In this document: piece by piece, positions 8,013 through 53,711 of the stretch | Numbering within the stretch: position 1 is the first letter of the stretch | Layout of the letters: the number at the start of each line of letters is the position of its first letter | IMG/VR virus record: IMGVR_UViG_3300018933_000006 | Coordinates: 1-53,806 of that record | DNA from: a virus | Strand: one strand, 5' to 3' | DNA length: 53,806 nucleotides | Made by a program: the position numbers and the translations under genes | The notes under the pieces: generated by a model | Told to the model about the DNA's origin: nothing | The model's input: only the letters and a program-made list of their open reading frames with translations | Databases searched by the model: none

Positions 8013-8465
8013 TCAGGTGGCGGGCTCGACGATCAGCTCGCGGGACGCGAACGACGCGGTATCGGTGCCCACGGACGACCTCATCAGCAGGCGGGTGTTG
8101 TAGGTCTCTCCCGGTGTGAGCCCGGTCAGCAGATGGACCACGCCGCTCCGGGCGAACGTGTTGCCGTAGTGGCTGGCGCCGATCGCGTCGACCGGGGTCT
8201 CCACGACGGTGCCGGCGCCGACGGTCCCACCGAGGCGGGTCTCCGGTGCGAGCAAACTGCCCGACGTCGCGGATGAGTTGACCATGCGGGCCGCCGCGTG
8301 GATCTTCACCCGGCCCGTGGTCGGCGCGACCCACACGACCGAGCAGTCCGCGCCGGACGTGGTGTACGCGGTCGACGTGGTCGTCACCGTACTGGACTGC
8401 GTGTCGGCCACCGTCGGCGGCGTGTCCGCCGCTTTGATGATGCTGCCGGGCGGCAGGTCAGGCAT
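8013..8465 (-). CDS. Small beta-rich virion protein, probably tail-associated, 150 aa
   Basis: The sequence is rich in Thr, Ser, Val and Gly (TQSSTVTTTSTAYTTSGADC, HLLTGLTPGETYNTRLL). It has the look of a jelly-roll or fibronectin-like decoration found at the tips of actinophage tails. It lies between the large tail protein and the endolysin. ATG 8465 begins MPDLPPGSIIKA. Function is inferred from position and composition. Confidence 0.65.
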   Translation of the reverse strand: MPDLPPGSIIKAADTPPTVADTQSSTVTTTSTAYTTSGADCSVVWVAPTTGRVKIHAAARMVNSSATSGSLLAPETRLGGTVGAGTVVETPVDAIGASHYGNTFARSGVVHLLTGLTPGETYNTRLLMRSSVGTDTASFASRELIVEPAT

Positions 8466-19986: not shown

Positions 19987-20361
19987 CTACGCCCCCTCGC
20001 CGTACTTCGCGATCAACATGTCCTTCGTCAGGCCCGGGATCTCCTGCCGCTCCTCGTCGGACACCGCCCGCTTCAGCGCGTACTCGATCCACGTGTCCTT
20101 CGAAGCGGAGCGGGCCGGCGGGTCGCCGGCCTCCTCCTGCTGTTCCTTGAACTCCTCCTCGACGGCCGCGCGCGGGCCCTCGGTGTCCGTGAGCGCGGTT
20201 CCCGGGGCGGTCTGCGGGCGCTTGAGGACGCTGTCCGGGGCGGTCGGCTCGGGCGTTTCGTCGCCTTCCAGCCGCTGCCAGTTGTCCAGTGCTTCCAGCC
20301 GCGCGTCTTCGGTCTCGCGTTCGACGACCTGGCCCGTGTTGTGGTTGTGGTAGCGGATCAT
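19987..20361 (-). CDS. Small head-region protein, 124 aa
   Basis: Begins MIRYHNHNTGQVVERET and has an acidic disordered middle. It ends with a small helical domain (DEERQEIPGLTKDMLIAKYG). Proteins with this start regularly follow the coat gene in Streptomyces phages. Start overlaps the coat stop (ATGA). Confidence 0.65.
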   Translation of the reverse strand: MIRYHNHNTGQVVERETEDARLEALDNWQRLEGDETPEPTAPDSVLKRPQTAPGTALTDTEGPRAAVEEEFKEQQEEAGDPPARSASKDTWIEYALKRAVSDEERQEIPGLTKDMLIAKYGEGA

Positions 20362-21308
20362 GCGGCGTCAGCTCCCTTGATCAGCACGGCACGGTCGGGG
20401 TCGAGTGTCTTGGTGCCGTACAGGCAGTCGACGCTGACGACGGTCTGCTTGTACTTGATGTCGTAGTCGTATACGACGCGCAGGGCGAAGCCCTTGTAGT
20501 TCATGATCGTGGCGTCCTGCGCGCCGGGCGGGACCTCCAGCGTGCGGGTCACCAGCGCGAATGCCGTCTTGTGAAAGGCGACGTCGACCTCGGTGGTCGG
20601 CTGGCCGGTCGCGGGGGTCGCGGCGGGGCCAGCGATGTTCTGCGTCATGAACGGGTCGAACCCGCTGACCCTGGAACCGAACTGCGCCTCCGTCAGACCC
20701 ACGGTGGAGCCGCGGTGGTCGGCGTACCGCCACGCCTTCTCCGCCACCCAGCGGGCCTTCGTGCGCGGGCCGACCACGACGTACCGGTCCGCCTGCGGCA
20801 CGTTCTTCGTGTCGAGGATCGCGCCGGCCTCGATGAGGACGCGAGAGTCGGACCACGGGTACTCGCCGTCGGCGTAGTTGTGGTCCTCGCCGTCCGCGTT
20901 CTCGGTGACCGCGCCGACTTCCTGCGTGATGTCGTCGCGCAGGGCGAGGATGTCCCGGTCGATCTTCTGGGCCATGGCCTCCATCGCCGGGTCCAGGAGC
21001 TGCTCGCCGAAGTCGTTGATCTCCAGGGTGAGCTGCTCGGTCGTGACGGTGAAGCTGACGTCCGGCATGTGGTTCAGCACCACCGGGAAGCCGGACTCGG
21101 TCGCGTTCTGCGGCACGATGCCGGTCGCCCGGTTGAACTCGTTCGCCGTGAACACTGCGGGCTTACGCACGGTGATCGTGTCGCCCACGCGGCCCGCGAA
21201 GTCGGCCTCGTAGTCACGGTGCACGAGCTGCGCCATGTGCGTGGCCTCGTAGAGCGTGGCCAGGGCCCGGCGGGCGATGGTGTCGGGGGTGAGGAACGTG
21301 TTGGCCAT
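20358..21308 (-). CDS. Major capsid protein, P22 coat (gp5)-like
   Basis: The 316-aa protein begins MANTFLTPDTIARRALATLY. It contains DTITVRKPAVFTANEFNRA and QKIDRDILALRDDITQEVGA, matching the P22-coat-like family common in actinophages (HK97 fold). A separate scaffold gene precedes it, consistent with the P22 assembly route. Forms the icosahedral shell. Confidence 0.92.
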   Translation of the reverse strand: MANTFLTPDTIARRALATLYEATHMAQLVHRDYEADFAGRVGDTITVRKPAVFTANEFNRATGIVPQNATESGFPVVLNHMPDVSFTVTTEQLTLEINDFGEQLLDPAMEAMAQKIDRDILALRDDITQEVGAVTENADGEDHNYADGEYPWSDSRVLIEAGAILDTKNVPQADRYVVVGPRTKARWVAEKAWRYADHRGSTVGLTEAQFGSRVSGFDPFMTQNIAGPAATPATGQPTTEVDVAFHKTAFALVTRTLEVPPGAQDATIMNYKGFALRVVYDYDIKYKQTVVSVDCLYGTKTLDPDRAVLIKGADAA

Positions 21309-23612: not shown

Positions 23613-25127
23613 CTACGGCAGGTCTCCGAGCTGCATCGGGTCGGGCACCGCGGTGCCGGTCTCCTGCTGGATCCGCGCCACCTCGGCCTGCACCTGGTCC
23701 TCGTCCCACTCCGGGTGCGCCATCCGCACCAGGGTGTCCGTCGAAGCCGCCTGCGCCCGCCGCAGCACGTCAGCCGTGTTCGCCAGCGCCAGCGGGTCCT
23801 CCTGCACCGAGTCCTCGAACTCGACCGTGGGCCGCTGCGGCACGAGGGCGCCGCCGTAGACGTACTGGTCGACTGCGAGGAGCGCTTCCACCAGATGCGC
23901 GAGCGCCGGCCGCCAACGCAGAATCTTCCGGCCGCGGGTCGTCATCGAGCGGCGCTCGCGGGCGGTGACCTCCGTGGCGGTTACGGCGACGTCGCCTCCG
24001 ATGCCGAACGTCTGGCCGCTGTATCCGGCGGAGCGAAGGATCTGGTTGACAAGATCCTCTGCTGTTTCCTTGTGCTCCCGCACGCGGATCGCGAACTGGG
24101 CCACGGTCAGCTGGCTGCTGGCGTCGCCGCGAGCCAGCATCTCCAGCCCGGCGAACGCTTCCTGGTCCGGGTCCCACGACGCGCCGCGTCCTGGCCCGGC
24201 CGACTGAAGGTAGGCGTTCGGGACGATGATGCGGCCCTTGCCGAGGCGGATGTCCCGCATCCAGCTGGAGTAGGTCTCGTCGAGGGCGTCCATCAGCGGC
24301 TCGACGCCGTCCAGGTCGCTGCGGCCGAGGTCTTTCAGCTTCGGCTGGCTACGCCAGCGGCGGCTGCTCTGGTTGGGGATGTGGACGACGTCCAACTTGT
24401 TGTACCCGGTGGGGATGCTGCCGTCCTCGCCGACCAGGGCGGCAAAGCCTGCGGTCTCCTCGCTGTCCTCCAGCGGGACCGGCTGGCCGAGTTTCTCCGC
24501 GGTGCCCTGGTACAGACCGTGCAGGATCACCCCGGGTTCGTGTCGCTGAAGCCACCGCCAGACCTGTCCGTCCTGCTCGCGGACGACCTTCCAGAACGTG
24601 ACCGCGCTGAGCCTGCCCCAGGTGAACTCGGGGACAGCCCGGTCGGCGTGCTCCGCTGTGATCCACGACCGGTCCGCGATGTCCTTGTCGTACACCGGGC
24701 GGAGGTACACCCCGCCGAGCGCGGCGCCGACCTCGGCGGCGGTCTGGAGAGTGGCGAGCATGCCGTCGTCGGTGAGGTCATCGAGGCGGGCCTGGGTGGT
24801 GTCGTCGTCAACGGTGAACCGCGGCGGCTCGGAGAACAGGAGGTCGGCGGAGCCGCCGCACAGGTCGCCAGCGATGGGCACGTGCAATTTCGTGCGCCGC
24901 TCGCCGGGTGCGGTGGGGGTGCCCCACCACCAGCGGGCCAGCCTACCGACGACGCCACCGGCGAACTGGTAGCGCTTCGGGTCGGGGCCGATGCCCGTTC
25001 CGCCGCCGTAGAGGCGTTCGAGGCGGTCGATGTCGCCGCTCCACCAGGTGTCCCAGGTGTTCATCGCGTCGAGGGCGGGGCCAAGATGCGGCGGGGGCCA
25101 GGGAGCGTCACCTGCGGGCAGCGACAT
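23613..25127 (-). CDS. Portal protein (SPP1-like), 504 aa
   Basis: Recognised by order (after the large terminase) and blocks such as RYQFAGGVVGRLARWWWGTP, WMRDIRLGKGRIIVPNAYLQ and RSAGYSGQTFGIGGDVAVTATEV, which match actinophage portals of the SPP1 gp6 type. Start ATG 25127 overlaps the previous stop (TGATG). Forms the dodecameric ring for DNA entry. Confidence 0.9.
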   Translation of the reverse strand: MSLPAGDAPWPPPHLGPALDAMNTWDTWWSGDIDRLERLYGGGTGIGPDPKRYQFAGGVVGRLARWWWGTPTAPGERRTKLHVPIAGDLCGGSADLLFSEPPRFTVDDDTTQARLDDLTDDGMLATLQTAAEVGAALGGVYLRPVYDKDIADRSWITAEHADRAVPEFTWGRLSAVTFWKVVREQDGQVWRWLQRHEPGVILHGLYQGTAEKLGQPVPLEDSEETAGFAALVGEDGSIPTGYNKLDVVHIPNQSSRRWRSQPKLKDLGRSDLDGVEPLMDALDETYSSWMRDIRLGKGRIIVPNAYLQSAGPGRGASWDPDQEAFAGLEMLARGDASSQLTVAQFAIRVREHKETAEDLVNQILRSAGYSGQTFGIGGDVAVTATEVTARERRSMTTRGRKILRWRPALAHLVEALLAVDQYVYGGALVPQRPTVEFEDSVQEDPLALANTADVLRRAQAASTDTLVRMAHPEWDEDQVQAEVARIQQETGTAVPDPMQLGDLP

Positions 25128-25300
25128 CAGACGCCCTCCCGTTCCATCAGCAGGTGCGCCAGTCCCAGCCAGGACGTGGCGAGTTCGTCGAGCCGCTCCA
25201 TTAGAGCGAGGTTCGTCTCCAGCTCGGCCGCGCGCAGCAGCCGTGCCGCGTTTTCAATCGCAGCGTCGGGGGTGATCCGCTCCTCGGGGCTGCTGGACAT
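25127..25300 (-). CDS. Small helical protein between terminase and portal, 57 aa
   Basis: ATG 25300 overlaps the large terminase stop, and its own stop overlaps the portal start. The protein is one or two acidic helices (DAAIENAARLLRAAELETNL, MERLDELATSWLGLAHLL). Its conservation of overlap on both sides suggests a real gene, perhaps a packaging accessory. Confidence 0.7.
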   Translation of the reverse strand: MSSSPEERITPDAAIENAARLLRAAELETNLALMERLDELATSWLGLAHLLMEREGV

Positions 25301-26571
25301 CAGGCGGCCACCTCCAGTCGAGTCGGCAGGTACGGCCGCCACAGGGCCTCGGTCGTGCGCACCCCGTACCGCAGCGCGTCGCAGCTGTGGTCGTTCTCCT
25401 TGATCGGCCGGTCCTCGCCCCGCTCGGCCGCGCCGTCGTCCCAGCTGTAGCCCGGGAGTTCGTCGATCAGGCCCTGCGCGGACTCGTGCACCAGCAGGTC
25501 GCCGGTTGAGAAAAGACTGCTGACCGTGCGGATGCCGTCGAGGACCGAGTTGTCCGCCGCCGTCACACCGCTGACGCCGTCGCGGTGCAGCTGCTCGATG
25601 TACGACGACGCGGATGGGTCCACGATCGTCCATTCCGGCTGCACGCCCATCACGTTGGTCTGAGGCTGCGGCACTCGCGCGAGCCACTGACGGCGGGCAC
25701 GGGAGTACTCGGAGTCCGTCATCTGCCGACGCGCGGTGCGGGAGTCGTGCCGGTACTCCGAAACCACGTACAGGCGCCGGTCCGTGCCGACGCCGATCAG
25801 GACATCGGCGTACGGGTTGACGGTGCCGTAGTCGATCGAGTCGCACAGCCACCGCTCGATCTGCGGCAGCGTCCGAACGACGTGCCGGTGCGCGTCGAAC
25901 ATCTCGTAGATCGCGCCCTCGGACTGCACCCAGTGCCCGGCGATGAAGCGCCGGTACCACAGGCCGACGTACTCGGCCTTCAACGAGGCCACGTAGGCCG
26001 GGTCGAGGGCGGGGTTGTCGTCGAGGGTGAAGTGCCACTGGCGGAGGTCGAGGTCTCCCTGACGGTCGAGGAACTCCTTCTTCAACCAGTGGCCGGGGTT
26101 GTCCGGGTTGGTCGTGGCCATCAGCCGCGCACCAGGTACCGACAGGCGGCCCAAGAGCTGGTTCCAGAAGCCGCGCGGGATCAGCGTCGCCTCGTCCACG
26201 TAGGCGAGGCAGGCGGTCAGGCCGCGGAGGCGGCCCTCGGCACGGGAGTCTGCTGCGCCGATCAGGTGGATCGTGCGACCGAGGACGGTCGCGGTGGTGG
26301 CGCCCCGGGTGTGCTGCACCAGCCGGGCTACCGGTCCGAACAGCGTCTCGTCTTGCAGTGGGTCGAGGACGTTGCGCTCGATGGTCTGGAGGGATCGGCC
26401 GACGATGACGATCAGTCCGGACGCCGGCGCGGCGGCGACCGCGATGAGGAAGGCGATCAGCGAGGAGATCGTCTTGCCCGACCGGATCGCCCCGTGCCAC
26501 ACGTTGATGCGGGCCGTGGCGTCGGCGATCGAGCGGATCTGCTTGCGGGACAGGGGCAGCGAGTCGAGCAT
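25300..26571 (-). CDS. terL: Terminase large subunit
   Basis: The 423-aa protein has Walker A GAIRSGKT (27-34), Walker B with acidic pair LAYVDEA (D126, E127), and the coupling motif MATTNPDNPG. Its RNase H-like nuclease has likely metal ligands D247 (SIDYGT), D318 (IVDPSA) and D394/D398 (NDHSCDAL). All key residues are present, so ATP-driven packaging and cleavage should be functional. Confidence 0.95.
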   Translation of the reverse strand: MLDSLPLSRKQIRSIADATARINVWHGAIRSGKTISSLIAFLIAVAAAPASGLIVIVGRSLQTIERNVLDPLQDETLFGPVARLVQHTRGATTATVLGRTIHLIGAADSRAEGRLRGLTACLAYVDEATLIPRGFWNQLLGRLSVPGARLMATTNPDNPGHWLKKEFLDRQGDLDLRQWHFTLDDNPALDPAYVASLKAEYVGLWYRRFIAGHWVQSEGAIYEMFDAHRHVVRTLPQIERWLCDSIDYGTVNPYADVLIGVGTDRRLYVVSEYRHDSRTARRQMTDSEYSRARRQWLARVPQPQTNVMGVQPEWTIVDPSASSYIEQLHRDGVSGVTAADNSVLDGIRTVSSLFSTGDLLVHESAQGLIDELPGYSWDDGAAERGEDRPIKENDHSCDALRYGVRTTEALWRPYLPTRLEVAA

Positions 26572-27813: not shown

Positions 27814-27984
27814 TCAGGTCAGCTCATCGACGTCGGCCACACCGTTCTGCTCGCGCATCGCCCGATCGGACTGGATGGTGAACCGCCGGCGCTGCTCCGG
27901 CGTCCACGCGGCCGGGTTCTTGGGCAGCCCGGCGACCGTGTCCCGCAGCTGCTCGGTCTCGCTCTTGCGGTTGAAGAGGGCCAT
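27814..27984 (-). CDS. Small hypothetical protein, 56 aa
   Basis: ATG 27984 with ACAGGAGACCGCCATC upstream. It begins MALFNRKSETEQLRDTVAGL and continues KNPAAWTPEQRRRFTIQSDR. It is charged, helical and unknown. It lies between the iteron region and the terminator, so it may be the last gene of the Spd-like operon or a separate unit. Confidence 0.65.
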   Translation of the reverse strand: MALFNRKSETEQLRDTVAGLPKNPAAWTPEQRRRFTIQSDRAMREQNGVADVDELT

Positions 27985-28019
27985 GATGGCGGTCTCCTGT
28001 CTCGTGATCGGGATGGGAA

Positions 28020-28058
28020 CCGGGGCGGCCGGTAGCTGGCAGGCGCAGGCCGCCCCGG
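28020..28058. terminator. Hairpin CCGGGGCGGCC / GGCCGCCCCGG
   Basis: Perfect 11-bp inverted repeat (28020-28030, 28048-28058) with a 17-base loop. It lies between the iteron array and the 56-aa gene and may end transcription of the Spd-like operon. Confidence 0.6.
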
Positions 28059-28117
28059 TGTTCAGCGAGTGGGCTACTTGCCGTCGCTCTTGGTCATCTC
28101 GGCGAGGTTCTCCTTGG

Positions 28118-28203
28118 GGTAGACCGGCGGTAGATTCGCCGGTAGATCGGGGTAGATCGGCCGGTAGACGTGCAGGTCAGGCGGCGGTAGACGGCGCGGT
28201 AGA
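28118..28203 (+). repeat. Phased GGTAGA iteron array
   Basis: GGTAGA starts at 28118, 28129, 28141, 28151, 28163, 28186 and 28198, with a degenerate copy GGTCAG at 28175. Steps are 11, 12, 10, 12, 12, 11 and 12 bp, mean 11.4, so all face one side of the helix. Five lie after the stop of the membrane-wHTH gene, the degenerate copy contains that stop, and two lie in its last codons. Arrays like this serve as plasmid iterons, partition centromeres or conjugative clt loci; which applies here is unknown. Confidence 0.8.
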
Positions 28204-28782
28204 CATCTCGCCGGCTACAGCCGGGGAAGGGGCCAGATCGGCCCGCCGCACACCCCTCGTCGGGCTCTTGGAGCCGGGCACCTTCACTTTGGGCTGGACG
28301 GGGATGTGAAGGGCCTCCAAACGGGCCCTCAGGTCGGCCACCTTCCAGCCCTTTCCGTGGCCCTGCTCCTGGAGGTGGGCGAGGACGGTGCGGAGGTGCA
28401 CCGCGTCGGCGGTCCCCATGGCCTCCAGCAGGAGGGCGCGCACGGCGTCCAAGTCGGGCTCCGCGGAGGCCTCGTCGTCGGCCGCGGGGGCGGCCGTCGT
28501 CCCGGCCTTCCAGGCGGCGCGGATCCACCACCCGACGAGGAGCCACATCAGCCACGGCAGGGCGCGGACGACTGCCCACAGGGCGTAGGCCGCGGCGCCG
28601 AGCACGGCCAGGCGCAGCAGCGGACCGAGGGCGGCGCGCCACCCGTCGAGGTCGTCGCGGCGGCCGGCGCGCACCCACGCGGTGAGGGCGTCGGTGCGGC
28701 GCTGCCAGACGAGGGCGCTGCCGCGGCACAGCCGGTCGGCGGCGGTGGTGCGGGCGGCCCACAGAGCGAGTTGGCGGCGCAT
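28177..28782 (-). CDS. Membrane protein with C-terminal winged-helix-like domain (plasmid-spread type), 201 aa
   Basis: Two adjacent hydrophobic helices at about residues 55-95 (LLRLAVLGAAAYALWAVVRA, LPWLMWLLVGWWIRAAWKAG). Then comes a soluble domain, AVRALLLEAMGTADAVHLRT, KGWKVADLRARLEALHIPVQ and a basic TRGVRRADL end, which reads as a winged helix. I recall this architecture from Streptomyces conjugative elements beside spdB. It could tether the iteron array to the membrane. ATG 28782 overlaps the upstream stop. Confidence 0.7.
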   Translation of the reverse strand: MRRQLALWAARTTAADRLCRGSALVWQRRTDALTAWVRAGRRDDLDGWRAALGPLLRLAVLGAAAYALWAVVRALPWLMWLLVGWWIRAAWKAGTTAAPAADDEASAEPDLDAVRALLLEAMGTADAVHLRTVLAHLQEQGHGKGWKVADLRARLEALHIPVQPKVKVPGSKSPTRGVRRADLAPSPAVAGEMSTAPSTAA

Positions 28783-29282
28783 CACAGACCGTTCTCCAGG
28801 ATGGTGCGGCCCTCGGCGCCGATGGCGTTGACGAGGTCGGGCCACCAGCCGAGGAGCTCGGCGACGCCGGGCAGGAACCCGAGGACGGCGAACGAGCAGA
28901 TGCCGCCGACGATCCGCCGCTTGTCCTGCTTCCCCGAGCCCTTGAACAGCAGGATCACGCCGAGCAGGATCAGGCAGACCACGATGGCGCCCTCGTAGGT
29001 GAGGGTGCCCATGCGGCCGGTCGGCATCGGCGCCGCCCCGGACGTGCCGGTCACCTTGGACACGCCGGCGTCGCCGCTGCCGGTGAAGATGCCGGCGATA
29101 CCGGCTGCTCCCCAGCCGAGCGCGCCGCCGATGCAGATGGTGGCGAGGGAGCCGAGGCCGGCGCCGCTGGCGTAGGGCACGAGGGCCTTGGGGTCTCGGC
29201 CTCCCTTCCACCAGGGGCGCAAGTTGGCGTAGAGGATGCCGAGGGCGACGGCGGCGCCGGCGAGGGATAGGCCTACGTTCAT
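28782..29282 (-). CDS. Spd-like polytopic membrane protein, 166 aa
   Basis: Starts MNVGLSLAGAAVALGILYAN (helix 1), then LRPWWKGGRDPKALVPY. Further helices are GSLATICIGGALGWGAAGIA, GAIVVCLILLGVILLF and GGICSFAVLGFLPGVAELLG. The NLRPWWKGGRDPKALVPYA block is familiar from proteins near spd/tra genes in Streptomyces integrative conjugative elements. Overlaps both neighbours. Confidence 0.7.
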   Translation of the reverse strand: MNVGLSLAGAAVALGILYANLRPWWKGGRDPKALVPYASGAGLGSLATICIGGALGWGAAGIAGIFTGSGDAGVSKVTGTSGAAPMPTGRMGTLTYEGAIVVCLILLGVILLFKGSGKQDKRRIVGGICSFAVLGFLPGVAELLGWWPDLVNAIGAEGRTILENGL

Positions 29283-29947
29283 CGGGGGACTCCGGTGAGG
29301 AACTGGATTGGGTCGTACCAGGAGAGGGCGCCGAACGCGCCGATGAAGGTGACGGCGAGCGCGAACAGGCGTAAGGGGCTGCCTCCCTTGCGGACGATGG
29401 CGGTGATCGCGAGGGTGAGGGGGATGAGGCCGAGGGCGTAGCCCCAACCCACTCCCCAGTCCTCACGGGCGAGGCTGACGGTGAAGTGCCACGTGGTGGC
29501 GACTGAGTAGCCGGTGTGTGGGATCGGTGTGACGGCCAGCGTCAGCCCGGTGACGGCGTGCCAGGGGCGGACGTACCGGCCGAGCCAGGCTGTAATCCGT
29601 TCCCAGCGGGACGGTTCCGGATCGGGTTCCGCCCACGCCAGCACGACCTCGTGGACGTGACGGATCTCTACGGGGCGCGGCTGCGGATCGGGTGGAACGG
29701 GCGTCGGATCTGGCACTGCGGGTGGGGGCGGAGGGGGCGGCGGTGTCCGCCAGGGCGGGGCTTCACCGGGCTCCGGCGGCCGGGCGGGGAGCGGGGCGCC
29801 GGCGGGGATGATCCGGGTGGGGGTGACGGGGCGGGGCTCGGGGTCGTGCATGGGTGGCTCCTGGTGGCCGAGGGGGCGGGCGCCGAGGCGGCGGAGGTGG
29901 TGGCGGGCGCGCAGCTCGTCGCCGCCGGGCGACGGCCGCGCGCCCAT
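29279..29947 (-). CDS. Proline-rich membrane protein of the Spd-like operon, 222 aa
   Basis: A cytoplasmic Pro-rich N-terminus includes a run of eight prolines (about residues 75-82). Three helices follow: WHAVTGLTLAVTPI, WGYALGLIPLTLAITAIV and FALAVTFIGAFGALSW. ATG 29947 overlaps the upstream stop as TGATG, and third codon positions stay G/C from there. ATG 29851 (190 aa) with CAGGAGCCACCC is an alternative. Function unknown; membership in the Spd operon suggests an inner-membrane complex. Confidence 0.65.
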   Translation of the reverse strand: MGARPSPGGDELRARHHLRRLGARPLGHQEPPMHDPEPRPVTPTRIIPAGAPLPARPPEPGEAPPWRTPPPPPPPPAVPDPTPVPPDPQPRPVEIRHVHEVVLAWAEPDPEPSRWERITAWLGRYVRPWHAVTGLTLAVTPIPHTGYSVATTWHFTVSLAREDWGVGWGYALGLIPLTLAITAIVRKGGSPLRLFALAVTFIGAFGALSWYDPIQFLTGVPR

Positions 29948-30819
29948 CAGGCGCCGACCCGGAGGGCGCGGAGGTAGCGGTCGACGCTGCTCTGCGGGAC
30001 CTGCTTGCCGGTGGCGTTCCGGACGGTCCGGAGGACGGCTTCCGGGTCGCGGATTCCGGAGTCCCAGGCGTTCCGGACTGCTTCCTGCGTGGTCACGCGG
30101 CCCGAGCGGATCGGGCTGACCTTGGGATCCGGATCTTCCGAAGTGGGCTCCGGAGTTCCGGGTGCCTCCGGAATTGCGGATCCGTTCTCCTCGGGGGTTC
30201 CGCCGAGGCTGCGCCGCTCGGCGTCTACGAGGGCCTGGCCGCGCTGGAGTTCCCGCCGGATCGGGATCATGGCGAGCTGGCCGTCGACCTTCGCGCGACG
30301 GGCGGTCACCCACTGCTGGGTGCGTGGGTCGAGCGGCCGGGCGTGCACGCGCATCGCCATCGACCAGCCGCCCTTGGCGAGCGCGGACACGACCGCGCCG
30401 ACCGCACCGATCACCCACGTGTCGGCGATGAGGTAGCCGTGCGCGAAGACCGCGCCCATGGACACGGCGAGCGCCCACCGGCCGGCCCGCCGCGCGACCT
30501 GCGCCCGTTCGGGGTCGTAGCGCAGCAGCCACTCCACGCCCATGCACATGATCCAGCTCGCGTCGAAGGCGACCGCGGCGGCGTAGGCGACGGCGGCGAT
30601 GGTGACGGCGGACAGGAGGTCGCCGATGCTGGCGGTCGTCCAGGCAAGGGACGCAGTGACGAGGATGATGGCGCCGATGGTGACGGCGGTGCGGACGATG
30701 TGGTCCCAGTCGCGGGGCGGTGCGGGGACCTCGATCTGTTCGCGGTCGAGGACCATCTCGGTGACGCCGTCGACGGTGTGAGGGACGAGCCGGGTCCGCT
30801 CGATGGTGCGGGTCTTCAC
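29947..30819 (-). CDS. SpdB-like (DUF2637-type) membrane protein, 290 aa
   Basis: Residues 40-155 hold four membrane helices (IVRTAVTIGAIILVTASLAW, AVTIAAVAYAAAVAFDASWI, ALAVSMGAVFAHGYLIADTW, VIGAVGAVVSALAKGGWSMA). Then QQWVTARRAKVDGQLAMIPI and a C-terminal wHTH-like segment (AVRNAWDSGIRDPEAVLRTV). This is the SpdB layout of Streptomyces plasmids, where it supports intramycelial spread of DNA together with TraB. No TraB is present here. Start GTG 30819. Confidence 0.75.
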   Translation of the reverse strand: MKTRTIERTRLVPHTVDGVTEMVLDREQIEVPAPPRDWDHIVRTAVTIGAIILVTASLAWTTASIGDLLSAVTIAAVAYAAAVAFDASWIMCMGVEWLLRYDPERAQVARRAGRWALAVSMGAVFAHGYLIADTWVIGAVGAVVSALAKGGWSMAMRVHARPLDPRTQQWVTARRAKVDGQLAMIPIRRELQRGQALVDAERRSLGGTPEENGSAIPEAPGTPEPTSEDPDPKVSPIRSGRVTTQEAVRNAWDSGIRDPEAVLRTVRNATGKQVPQSSVDRYLRALRVGA

Positions 30820-39577: not shown

Positions 39578-39892
39578 TCAGGCGGTGGGCGGCTGCGTCT
39601 CGCGCGGGTCGTAGGGCCACGCCATGTCGCGCGTCCCCCACGGGGCCTTGTGCGAGCCTCGGTGGCCCTTGGCCTGGGTGCAGCGGGTGTCGGTGTGGTG
39701 GGGGTAGAAGGCGCCGCAGGCGGGGATGCGGGCGCCGGTGGCGATCCAGTCGGCGACGTTGGCCCAGTCGCCGTCTCGACCCTTGATGACGACCTCGCCG
39801 AAGAGGGCGCGGAAGGCATCGGCGAGGACGGCGGGGGTGCTGGGGCTCTCCGCGGCGGGCTCGTAGCGGGCTTCGTAGTCCTGCTCGGTCAT
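39578..39892 (-). CDS. Hypothetical protein, 104 aa
   Basis: MTEQDYEARYEPAAESPSTP, a helix with VLADAFRALFGEVVIKGRDG, then ACGAFYPHHTDTRCTQAKGH. ATG 39892 overlaps the helicase stop. Unknown. Confidence 0.6.
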   Translation of the reverse strand: MTEQDYEARYEPAAESPSTPAVLADAFRALFGEVVIKGRDGDWANVADWIATGARIPACGAFYPHHTDTRCTQAKGHRGSHKAPWGTRDMAWPYDPRETQPPTA

Positions 39893-41709
39893 GCGCTGTG
39901 CCTTTCGTGGTCGGTGGTGGGGTGCTGGGGGCGGTCGGGGTGGCTGCCGGTGGCGGGGTCGCATCCGAGGTGGGTGTCGTATCCGCGGTTGGCCCAGTCG
40001 GGGTTCATGGGGAGGGCGCAGATGGTGCAGATCGGGCGTTCGTCGTCCCGGGTCCCGGGGTCCCCCTCCGTACCTCCCCCCGCCTTAGAGGCGGGGCGGG
40101 GGGAGGGAGGTCGGGGAGGGACGTCCCCCGGGGCTCCCCCGGGATTCGGGGGGAGGTTTGACCTGCGGGTTTGCGTGTTCTCCTCGGAACTCCCCCCTTG
40201 ATCGTGGGGGAGTTCGCTTTCAAGATCGCGGGGGAGGTTCGGGGGGAGGTCATTTCGGGCATCCCGAACCTCGTCGAAGGAGTCCCTCCGCTTGCGGATC
40301 CGGACGGCCTCCTCGACCTTCTCCTTGCGCATCGAGATGCCGTACTCGGCGCACCACTTGATGACCCGGGGGCTGCCCCACTTCAGCGGGACCGCGGCCT
40401 TGTCGAGCACGCTGACGAGCCACTCCGGGGTGCCCTTGACCAGCTCGGCGGGCCGGTGGTCGAGGGACTCCAGCACGACCGATGTGACCGGCCGGCCGTC
40501 GGGCTTTGCTTCGCCGTCGAGGGTGATGACGCGCAGCCCGAATTGGAGGTCGGCGCCTTCCTCGTCGTCCTTCTGCTTGCCGACCTTGACGGTGACGATG
40601 ATGTTCTTGGCGTTGTCGCCCTTCTTCGACACGTGCAGCTCGGACTGGAGGGCGCCCTTGGCGGAGGAGGCTCCGCGGCCGTGTTCGCCGACGTGGCCGG
40701 TGTGGTGGACGACGAGGACGCAGGCGCCGGTGGCGCGGCGGAGGTCTTCCATCCGCTCGATGACGACGCCGACTTCGGTGTTGGAGTTCTCCTCGACGCC
40801 GACGGAGACGCGGGCCTGGGTGTCGATGACGATCATCTCGGGTGCGAGGCGGCGCATCGCCTCGATGAGGGTGTCCCACTCCGGGCCCATCGCCTGCACG
40901 GGGCGCGGGAGGAAGAGGACGTTGTCCATGCGGACGCCGTAGTGCTTCTCCCAGGCGCGGACGCGCTTGCGGATGCCGCGGGCGCCCTCGGCGACGAGGT
41001 AGACGACGGTGCCCTGGCGGACGTAGTGGCCGTGCCACTGCATGCCGGTGCCGACGTGTCCGGCGAGGTCGATCGTGACGAAGCTCTTCATGTGGCCGGA
41101 CGGGCCGATGATGCGGGCGAGGGAGTCCAGGTGCAGGAGGTCGCCGACGAGCGGCTCCAGCGTCGGCATGTTGTCGAGACTGGAGGCATCGAGGAGTTCC
41201 GCCAGCAGCGCGTCGGCGGGGTCGCCGGAGCGGCCGGCGGCGCGTTCCTTCTGCCGCTTCAGGTAGTCGTCGATGAAGGTGACGGCCTGGCCTGGCTCGG
41301 CCTCTGGTGAGGTGGCCTGCTGGACGATCAGGCGCCCCAGTTCGGCCTCGGCGCGCAGTTCGGCGCGGCGGCGGACCTCGCGGGCGTAGTACTCGGGGTT
41401 GCCGCCGTAGTCGCCGAGGCGAGCGACGTAGACGAGGCCGCCCGCGCGGCGCAGCTCCTGGCGCTTCTCCAGCTCGATACGCAGGGACATCGGGTTGACG
41501 GGCTCACCCTTGTCGTACAGCTCGCCGAGGACGTCCCAGATCAGTTCGTGGGCGGGCAGGGCGAAATCGCTGCGGGTGAGGATGCCGCGGATGGCGGGGA
41601 TCTGCTTGGGCTGGTGGATGCAGCCGCCGAGGACGTACCGCTCAGCCTCATGTTGGTCGGGGCCGTCGTGGTCCGCCTGCTGGTGCGGGATATGGCGGAC
41701 GTTGCTCAC
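39889..41709 (-). CDS. Replicative helicase: DnaB N-terminal-like plus RepA/AAA_25-like ATPase, 606 aa
   Basis: Residues 20-130 resemble the DnaB N-terminal domain (EAERYVLGGCIHQP, EPVNPMSLRIELEKRQ). Residues 195-400 form a RecA-fold ATPase with Walker A GPSGHMKS (202-209), Walker B IVIDTQAR (D296), VLVVHHTGH and RGASSAKGALQSELHV, as in RepA/AAA_25 helicases. A disordered Pro/Gly-rich linker with two NLPPN units leads to a C-terminal Cys motif (CTICALPMNP, HLGC). It probably unwinds DNA at the phage origin. Confidence 0.85.
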   Translation of the reverse strand: MSNVRHIPHQQADHDGPDQHEAERYVLGGCIHQPKQIPAIRGILTRSDFALPAHELIWDVLGELYDKGEPVNPMSLRIELEKRQELRRAGGLVYVARLGDYGGNPEYYAREVRRRAELRAEAELGRLIVQQATSPEAEPGQAVTFIDDYLKRQKERAAGRSGDPADALLAELLDASSLDNMPTLEPLVGDLLHLDSLARIIGPSGHMKSFVTIDLAGHVGTGMQWHGHYVRQGTVVYLVAEGARGIRKRVRAWEKHYGVRMDNVLFLPRPVQAMGPEWDTLIEAMRRLAPEMIVIDTQARVSVGVEENSNTEVGVVIERMEDLRRATGACVLVVHHTGHVGEHGRGASSAKGALQSELHVSKKGDNAKNIIVTVKVGKQKDDEEGADLQFGLRVITLDGEAKPDGRPVTSVVLESLDHRPAELVKGTPEWLVSVLDKAAVPLKWGSPRVIKWCAEYGISMRKEKVEEAVRIRKRRDSFDEVRDARNDLPPNLPRDLESELPHDQGGSSEENTQTRRSNLPPNPGGAPGDVPPRPPSPRPASKAGGGTEGDPGTRDDERPICTICALPMNPDWANRGYDTHLGCDPATGSHPDRPQHPTTDHERHSA

Positions 41710-52334: not shown

Positions 52335-53711
52335 ATGCCCTACGTGGAGCGACGCGGCAACAGCATCCGCGTCAAGTGGTGGGGCGGCGAGTACAAGCCA
52401 GGCCCGGACGGCAAGCCCACCAAGACCAAGAAGTACGAGTCCGCCTCCGGGCCAGAGCCCGGCGTTCCGTTCAGGGATGAGGAGGAGGCGTACAACTACG
52501 GCCTCGACCGGGAGCACGACGTCCGCCACGGCAAGCACATCCCGCGCGCGGACGCGAGGACGCCGATGGAGGAGTACTGCTGGACCTGGTTCGAGGCGGC
52601 GGAACTCCGCCCGAATTCCGTCGACACCTACAAGTCCATGCTCAACGCGGTGATCATCCCAGACTGGCAGGGGCGTGCTGTCGGTGCCATCACGCCCCCT
52701 GAGTACGACCTGTGGAAGAAGAGCATCGAACGCAGGTACTCCGCGAACTACGCCAGCCAGCTGCGCGGGGTGTTCCGCATGCTGATGGAGGACGCCGTCC
52801 TCAAGTACAAGCTGCGCACGGACTCGCCGATCGTCGAGCAGCACCGACGCGGCCGGTACACCAAGAAGCAGACGCGCCGGAAGAAGCGGCAGCTGCCCAT
52901 CGAGGCCGTGCACAAGCTCGCCGTCAACGCCTACCACGTCTGGGGCTTCACCGGCTGGACGTACATCTGGACCGTCGCCTTCACCGGCATGAGGCCGCCC
53001 GGCGAGATGTACGGTCTCCAGCGCGGCTACACCTCGGCGCACTGGCCGGCCTCCGACCCGGATCCGGAGAGGCGCAAGGAGGCCCTGGAGCGGTACCAGG
53101 GCAAGCTGCACGCGCTGCGTGTGCAGCACCAGCTCTACCGAGCGGACGGCCTACCGACACTCGCCGGTCCGAAGTATGAGTCCTACCGGACGCAGGTGAT
53201 CCCCCCGTTCCTGCACGAGATGCACGCCGCGCTGCTGGCCTCTCATGACAAGCCGTTCGTGTTCCTATCGCTGACCGGCAAGCCGCTGCTGGGAGCGCAG
53301 TTCGAGCGGGACTACTGGCATCCGATCCGGGACGGCGCCAAGGAGCGGAAGGCGCGCAAGGGCTACGAACGGTTCACCCGGCCCAAGCTGCCGGCCGTGG
53401 AAGAGATGGCAGGGCAAGATCTCTACCGATTGCGGCACTGGCACCGGGAGCTGCTGGACGAGCCGGGCGCCGACATCGCGCGCGTCGCGAAGGAGGCCCG
53501 GATGGGTCACGAGCTGCCGGGCGTTGAGGGCGTCTACAGCATGGTGACCTTGGCGATGGAGGAGCGCATCGTCGAGTACCTCCAGGAGGTCTGGGAAAAG
53601 TTTCTGAGCACGGGCCCGTGGCTTCCGCCTTTTCCCAACGCTCTCCCAGATGATCAAGGAAACGCTCCGTCCGCGCTGTTCAGCGACTTCCGCATCCTTG
53701 AAGGAGAGTGA
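52335..53711 (+). CDS. int: Tyrosine site-specific integrase, 458 aa
   Basis: N-terminal arm-binding part (IRVKWWGGEYKPG), SAM-like core-binding domain (about 85-190), catalytic domain 200-410: R220 in TGMRPPGEMYGLQ, Y364-x-x-R367 in LYRLRHWHREL (Tyr at the usual His position), H392 in RMGHEL, nucleophile Y401 in VYSMV. ATG 52335 follows GAGGGAGGGCGC. The TGA stop (53709-53711) is the first three bases of the att core, so the gene abuts attR, as usual for integrases. It catalyses integration and, with Xis, excision. Confidence 0.95.
   Translation: MPYVERRGNSIRVKWWGGEYKPGPDGKPTKTKKYESASGPEPGVPFRDEEEAYNYGLDREHDVRHGKHIPRADARTPMEEYCWTWFEAAELRPNSVDTYKSMLNAVIIPDWQGRAVGAITPPEYDLWKKSIERRYSANYASQLRGVFRMLMEDAVLKYKLRTDSPIVEQHRRGRYTKKQTRRKKRQLPIEAVHKLAVNAYHVWGFTGWTYIWTVAFTGMRPPGEMYGLQRGYTSAHWPASDPDPERRKEALERYQGKLHALRVQHQLYRADGLPTLAGPKYESYRTQVIPPFLHEMHAALLASHDKPFVFLSLTGKPLLGAQFERDYWHPIRDGAKERKARKGYERFTRPKLPAVEEMAGQDLYRLRHWHRELLDEPGADIARVAKEARMGHELPGVEGVYSMVTLAMEERIVEYLQEVWEKFLSTGPWLPPFPNALPDDQGNAPSALFSDFRILEGE

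Follow-up and report, generated by a model that had tools for sequence, protein, structure and literature searches.

What does a short array of evenly spaced DNA repeats do at the very end of a phage gene for a membrane protein? The question is raised by the window, the whole stretch of 53,806 nucleotides analysed here, which corresponds to virus record IMGVR_UViG_3300018933_000006 and represents a temperate tailed phage. Pfam scans of the window proteins gave profile matches for a large terminase (25300-26571), an SPP1-type portal (23613-25127), a P22-coat-like capsid protein (20358-21308) and a DnaB-like helicase (39889-41709); a putative integrase (52335-53711), with no Pfam match, was assigned by its place and sequence. 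The array lies on the minus strand at 28118-28203 and straddles, as the original prediction held, the stop codon (28177-28179) of the gene for a 201-residue membrane protein with a C-terminal winged helix, here called P0001 (28177-28782, minus strand).

All seven predicted copies of TCTACC (GGTAGA on the plus strand) are exact and were found at 28118, 28129, 28141, 28151, 28163, 28186 and 28198, two of them within the coding sequence and five after the stop. Dinucleotide shuffling of the entire window, repeated 200 times, never yielded a hexamer with more than 5 copies within 86 bp. What had been read as a degenerate eighth copy, between copies 5 and 6, turned out to be a separate conserved octamer, TGACCTGC (GCAGGTCA on the other strand), at 28172-28179 on the minus strand, where it overlaps the TGA stop of P0001. 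In relatives of the TCTACC class the layout counted from the start of this core is -24, -12, 0 (the core), +11, +23, +33, +45 and +56, and the core therefore fills a repeat slot. The same octamer occurs 7 times in the whole window against 2 expected, the copies outside the array being at 8453, 17256, 33527, 40159, 47314 and 50557.

The proposed helical phasing stood in part. The 10-12 bp periodicity is real and conserved, with a mean step of 11.43 bp, but the claim that all sites face one side of the DNA is wrong for relaxed B-DNA, since a helix of 10.5 bp per turn would spread them over 223 degrees (resultant length 0.36) and they become aligned only at ~11.4 bp per turn. By analogy with what has been discussed for ParR and TubR (PMC5016525), a gently wrapping or underwound complex would fit the ~11.4-bp spacing. 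It could also be argued that the array arose neutrally, by expansion of a simple repeat or of some repetitive coding sequence, slippage being able to enlarge short repeats. We find this scarcely credible, and the comparative data already contradict it: words and spacing persist even where the spacer sequence has changed, a core that does not resemble the repeats keeps a fixed place, and the arrangement is conserved across many domain clusters. Nor do the steps (12, 23, 12, 10, 12 and 11 bp) follow multiples of three. Together with the non-coding position of the array in several relatives (it lies within the coding region in many others), the step lengths led us to reject a coding or slippage repeat.

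The C-terminal half of P0001 is the predicted reader of these sites. AlphaFold modelled a winged helix at residues ~111-183 with a pLDDT of ~90, and a model of the domain alone agreed (pLDDT 85, pTM 0.68), bearing out the winged-helix-like domain that had been suggested; from structure models and covariation we propose residues ~109-183 (28234-28458, minus strand) as the candidate array reader. The two membrane helices of the original prediction are less certain, as hydropathy and the model agree on a hydrophobic membrane segment but render it as a single long helical stretch at residues ~50-94 (28501-28635, minus strand). P0001 belongs to phrog_5650, of unknown function, and none of Pfam, NCBIfam and PHROGs gives its family a functional name; searches of Pfam and NCBIfam with the protein gave nothing informative. 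PDB sequence and fold searches with whole P0001 and with the domain returned generic winged helices only. Comparison by hhalign with pIJ101 Tra and SpdB found no sequence similarity, a weak test in that each target was a single sequence.

P0001 closes a cluster of overlapping membrane-protein genes on the minus strand, comprising a polytopic protein (29947-30819, phrog_35187) with homologs on small actinobacterial plasmids, a small membrane protein (29279-29851, phrog_15316, start codon estimated) and a membrane protein (28782-29282, phrog_16379) that is the immediate upstream partner of P0001. On the other side of the array lie a GC-rich hairpin (28019-28059, minus strand) with perfect 12-bp arms, ACCGGGGCGGCC/GGCCGCCCCGGT, and a small gene for a protein of 56 aa (27814-27984, minus strand). 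Similar hairpins are present in many relatives past the array or gene, just before the ribosome site of the small gene. The gene next 3' of the array varies among relatives; one small gene that recurs there (e.g. in L060, L081, L112 and L212) encodes the pattern MALG..DDPRL.GHETTYQASRGG, which the small protein after the element on a 10.3-kb plasmid, described below, loosely resembles.

Relatives were gathered by protein similarity and, separately, by DNA pattern alone. The first route gave 132 distinct homologs of P0001 with downstream DNA, and in 107 of them the core octamer, counted with 7 of 8 letters exact, lies 40-78 bp past the end of the winged helix, where 0.3 would be expected by chance; all 8 letters are present in 105. 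When homologs were grouped at 50% domain identity, 15 of the 29 clusters contained the core; no other nucleotide feature of the P0001 family is as well conserved. The remaining 25 homologs have no core in the stretch searched, several of them carrying near-variants such as TACCTGC, CCTGGTCA and TGACCAGC. The repeat word itself differs between subfamilies (TCTACC, TCTCCC, AACTAC, GCTAC, CAACAA, CTCTCC, CCTACC and GTCTAC), and copies of the same word tend to lie 10-12, 21-24 or 33-36 bp apart, a pattern of peaks seen in the TCTACC class and again, independently, in the other classes. We looked for relatives that have the gene but no phased repeats, and almost every homolog retains a phased array or a variant still recognisable as one.

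The orientation of the core is informative in its own right. Among the 107 homologs it points one way in 81 and the other way in 26, and in the inverted group it sits in the coding end of the gene with flanking arms that are often reverse complements (e.g. GTTGTTG..core..CAACAAC), which rules out an explanation by protein code or by a single RNA strand. An RNA element was rejected because the core orientation flips; the one Rfam match, below threshold, lies elsewhere.

The second route, blind to genes, was a DNA-pattern scan that gave many unrelated AT-rich repeats and was used for GC-rich arrays only, scored as loci with at least 5 chained repeats found from DNA alone. Among the matches listed, 21 of 21 GC-rich arrays adjoin a P0001-type gene and 20 of 21 have the winged helix directly upstream. 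These counts include L028 among the 21, a locus where the contig edge truncates the gene but leaves its last 35 residues, and L123 among the 20, whose gene has no P0001 similarity by BLAST and was recognised by domain profile only. Querying a phage collection with the class-B domain, and seeking relatives of L158 in viral contigs, gave no useful outcome.

Similarity of the repeat words rose with winged-helix identity after controlling for identity of the membrane half (partial rank r 0.18, 0/500 permutations), whereas for identity of the membrane half, with the winged helix held constant, r was -0.01 (338/500 permutations). The winged-helix effect survived other word lengths, a shifted region and removal of the main class, and the domain effect was absent for control words taken out of membrane-coding DNA. 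In these comparisons of sequences the repeat word tracks winged-helix identity, with the caution that linkage could contribute, the domain being directly beside the array. The correspondence is not letter by letter: the word of phage VWB, TCTCCC, is one base apart from that of the window, and the recognition helices are almost identical, so position 4 is either tolerant or read elsewhere, not strictly by that helix. A word that changes with its attached winged helix around a fixed core offers many natural pairs for decoding winged-helix specificity.

The family was present in 59 of 394 sampled Streptomyces genomes (~15%), and in 4 of 397 genomes of a phylum-wide sample, all 4 of which were also in the genus sample. 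Known temperate Streptomyces phages with the module are VWB (gp26) and Kromp (gp85), besides many prophages. Six distant homologs sit in prophages, as judged from an SPP1-type portal ~4-10 kb away. Plasmids are also among the carriers. The 10.3-kb plasmid NZ_CP109464 of Streptomyces sp. NBC_01454 carries the module with core and arms in the order DUF2637 gene, two small genes, homolog of 28782-29282, winged-helix protein, element and small downstream gene. Its other genes include one annotated as encoding a replication protein and one for a GntR regulator. In S. scopuliridis, a linear plasmid encodes a related protein with CTACC repeats. The 20.7-kb plasmid NZ_CP109459 (L193, NBC_01456) resembles a head-to-tail dimer of NZ_CP109464 (L188), with most genes listed twice, and is possibly an assembly artefact. 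On two further linear plasmids of 10.5 and 7.4 kb (L189 and L190), homologs of the 29947-30819 protein (33% and 27% identity) are followed by unrelated large proteins; this membrane protein therefore also travels without the winged-helix gene.

The original prediction had spoken of Spd-module proteins. In favor of that idea, the first module gene of NZ_CP109464 matches DUF2637 (E 2e-9), and the gene at 29947-30819 corresponds in position to its slot; the window protein itself, however, has no DUF2637 match.

These carriers bear on what the array is for. One reading is transcriptional control, in which the winged-helix protein on the array acts as operator or enhancer complex, silencing the end of its own operon or activating downstream (phage late) genes. 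Winged helices are common in regulators, a Streptomyces wHTH protein, BldC, sets a precedent by binding cooperatively to direct repeats (PMC5859096), many proteins that bind partition centromeres also act as repressors (PMC5016525), and the array precedes the small gene and, further on, packaging genes. However, it lies at the 3' end of a gene, often inside the coding region and in both orientations, the following gene differs between relatives, a small plasmid without late genes retains it, and a membrane anchor would be unusual in a local repressor. We therefore consider regulation rather unlikely, and an operator dedicated to one fixed target was rejected on account of the 3' location, the variable downstream genes and the two orientations.

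Another suggestion is that the array is a cos or pac site recognised in packaging near the terminase genes. In the window the array is 1 kb upstream of a putative small terminase gene, and in other carriers it is a few kb upstream of packaging genes, but the deposited linear genome of Kromp ends ~4.2 kb from its array and the same module is found on a plasmid without packaging genes; these two observations speak against a packaging site, which we consider extremely improbable.

Short phased direct repeats are likewise typical of a replication origin with iterons, one of the functions listed in the original prediction, and in VWB the cumulative GC skew has its minimum 1.5-2 kb from the array. 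The site is GC-rich (~0.7), with no AT-rich stretch, and Pfam scans recognised no initiator gene beside the array, which led us to reject an iteron origin. Moreover, the window and Kromp show no skew minimum at the site, and replication genes lie elsewhere (the helicase at 39.9 kb in the window; the plasmid rep gene at 7.9-9.4 kb, the element at ~0.65 kb), and an origin was very unlikely in our estimate.

A classical partition centromere, with P0001 as the centromere binder and a motor that is either unrecognised or host-encoded, is another reading, which we regard as unlikely. Repeats phased at 11-12 bp with a winged helix as their reader would have parallels in tubC/TubR and parC/ParR (PMC5016525), and plasmids are among the carriers. 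Against this, Pfam scans recognised no partition NTPase of the ParA, ParM or TubZ type among the window proteins, known type II and III centromeres lie upstream of the par operon, and Foldseek with the winged-helix domain returned generic winged helices, TubR being absent among the matches listed.

What is left of the original likeness to centromere, iteron or clt loci is thus a periodic cis-site beside the gene of its likely binder that resembles clt and centromere sites; the iteron origin and a complete clt/TraB system were not sustained, the latter because FtsK is absent in all records searched. No FtsK/TraB motor (PF01580 above cut-off) was found in the window, VWB, Kromp, the module-bearing plasmids or 20 further virus records.

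We hypothesize that the element works much like a centromere or clt: a reader anchored in the membrane would assemble on it and tether the phage or plasmid DNA to membrane or septum, for the purpose of partition or of spread within the mycelium. We give this explanation about an even chance of being right. The element would act in cis, as the place where the product of the gene directly upstream assembles. Several P0001 molecules, with their N-terminal halves in the membrane and their C-terminal winged helices on the 10-12 bp repeats, would cooperatively build up an ordered protein-DNA complex about the core octamer, which might be the center of the site or be read by a second, more conserved factor. 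The DNA would thereby be docked at the membrane, most plausibly at hyphal septa, along with the neighboring small membrane proteins, and docking would serve the partition or spread of the element across the mycelium. Since no motor was found with the module, movement would be either passive tethering or the work of a borrowed FtsK/TraB-type translocase of the host or a co-resident element. Points against the docking hypothesis are the homologs without a core in the searched stretch, the missing motor or NTPase, and the lesser need for partition in lysogens of an integrating phage.

A role in partition or in spread through hyphae is suggested by analogy with Streptomyces plasmids. Plasmid spread involves Spd membrane proteins working with TraB at septa, and a plasmid deleted for traB spreads when the recipient supplies TraB (PMC5133688); SpdB2 is a membrane DNA-binding protein (PMC4170104); and in pWTY27 the 3' end of the binder gene, whose product is membrane-anchored, overlaps the clt (PMC3583192). 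Extending the docking hypothesis, phages and plasmids of Streptomyces might share a motorless docking system by which phage genomes pass between mycelial compartments, perhaps borrowing host FtsK or resident TraB, which would amount to phage-encoded intramycelial spread; this we put forward as a tentative possibility, and a doubtful one. Were the docking role true, it would tie phage biology to mycelial plasmid spread, and the behavior of phage DNA in a multicellular, septate host would become testable.

The element is not described in the literature searched, where the core octamer gave unrelated matches, but its parts have recognisable counterparts. Among these are the Streptomyces clt/TraB systems, e.g. 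of pSVH1 and pWTY27, with 8-bp TRS repeats, which likewise place multiple short direct repeats next to the gene of their binder; in pWTY27 TraA/clt the repeats adjoin or overlap the 3' end of a gene that encodes a membrane-anchored DNA-binder. These systems also lie near spread genes in actinobacterial elements, as the module may do. The window module differs from them in having no FtsK-type ATPase, in its words, its 10-12 bp phasing and its conserved core, and in being found mainly on phages. SpdA2/sps of pIJ101 and relatives is similar in that, on Streptomyces plasmids, a protein gene has its own DNA site within it or next to it, and a stability effect is known for the sps system. However, SpdA binds sps as a 12-bp palindrome, CGTCACGTGACG, whereas the window has phased repeats and a membrane wHTH protein; the palindrome is absent from the window, which rules out an sps site. 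In tubC/TubR and parC/ParR, as may also hold for the repeats of the window and their predicted reader, tandem centromere repeats are read by a small oligomerising DNA-binding protein, a winged helix in the case of TubR, but the window has no TubZ or ParM, its array is at the 3' end of the gene rather than upstream of an operon, its reader would be membrane-anchored, and it includes the core octamer. BldC may share a binding mode, with head-to-tail winged helices on short Streptomyces direct repeats, and differs from P0001 as a soluble MerR-like regulator of 9-bp AATT repeats at promoters. Protein p16.7 of phage phi29 is a phage membrane protein whose C-terminal DNA-binding domain links phage DNA to the membrane, a likeness to P0001; phi29 belongs to a different phage group, and p16.7 is not known to have a dedicated phased array. 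The parts thus resemble clt and centromere systems, and it is their combination, a membrane-anchored winged helix, a phased array with an evolving word, a core in either orientation and no motor, shared by phages and plasmids, that is new to the papers and databases searched.
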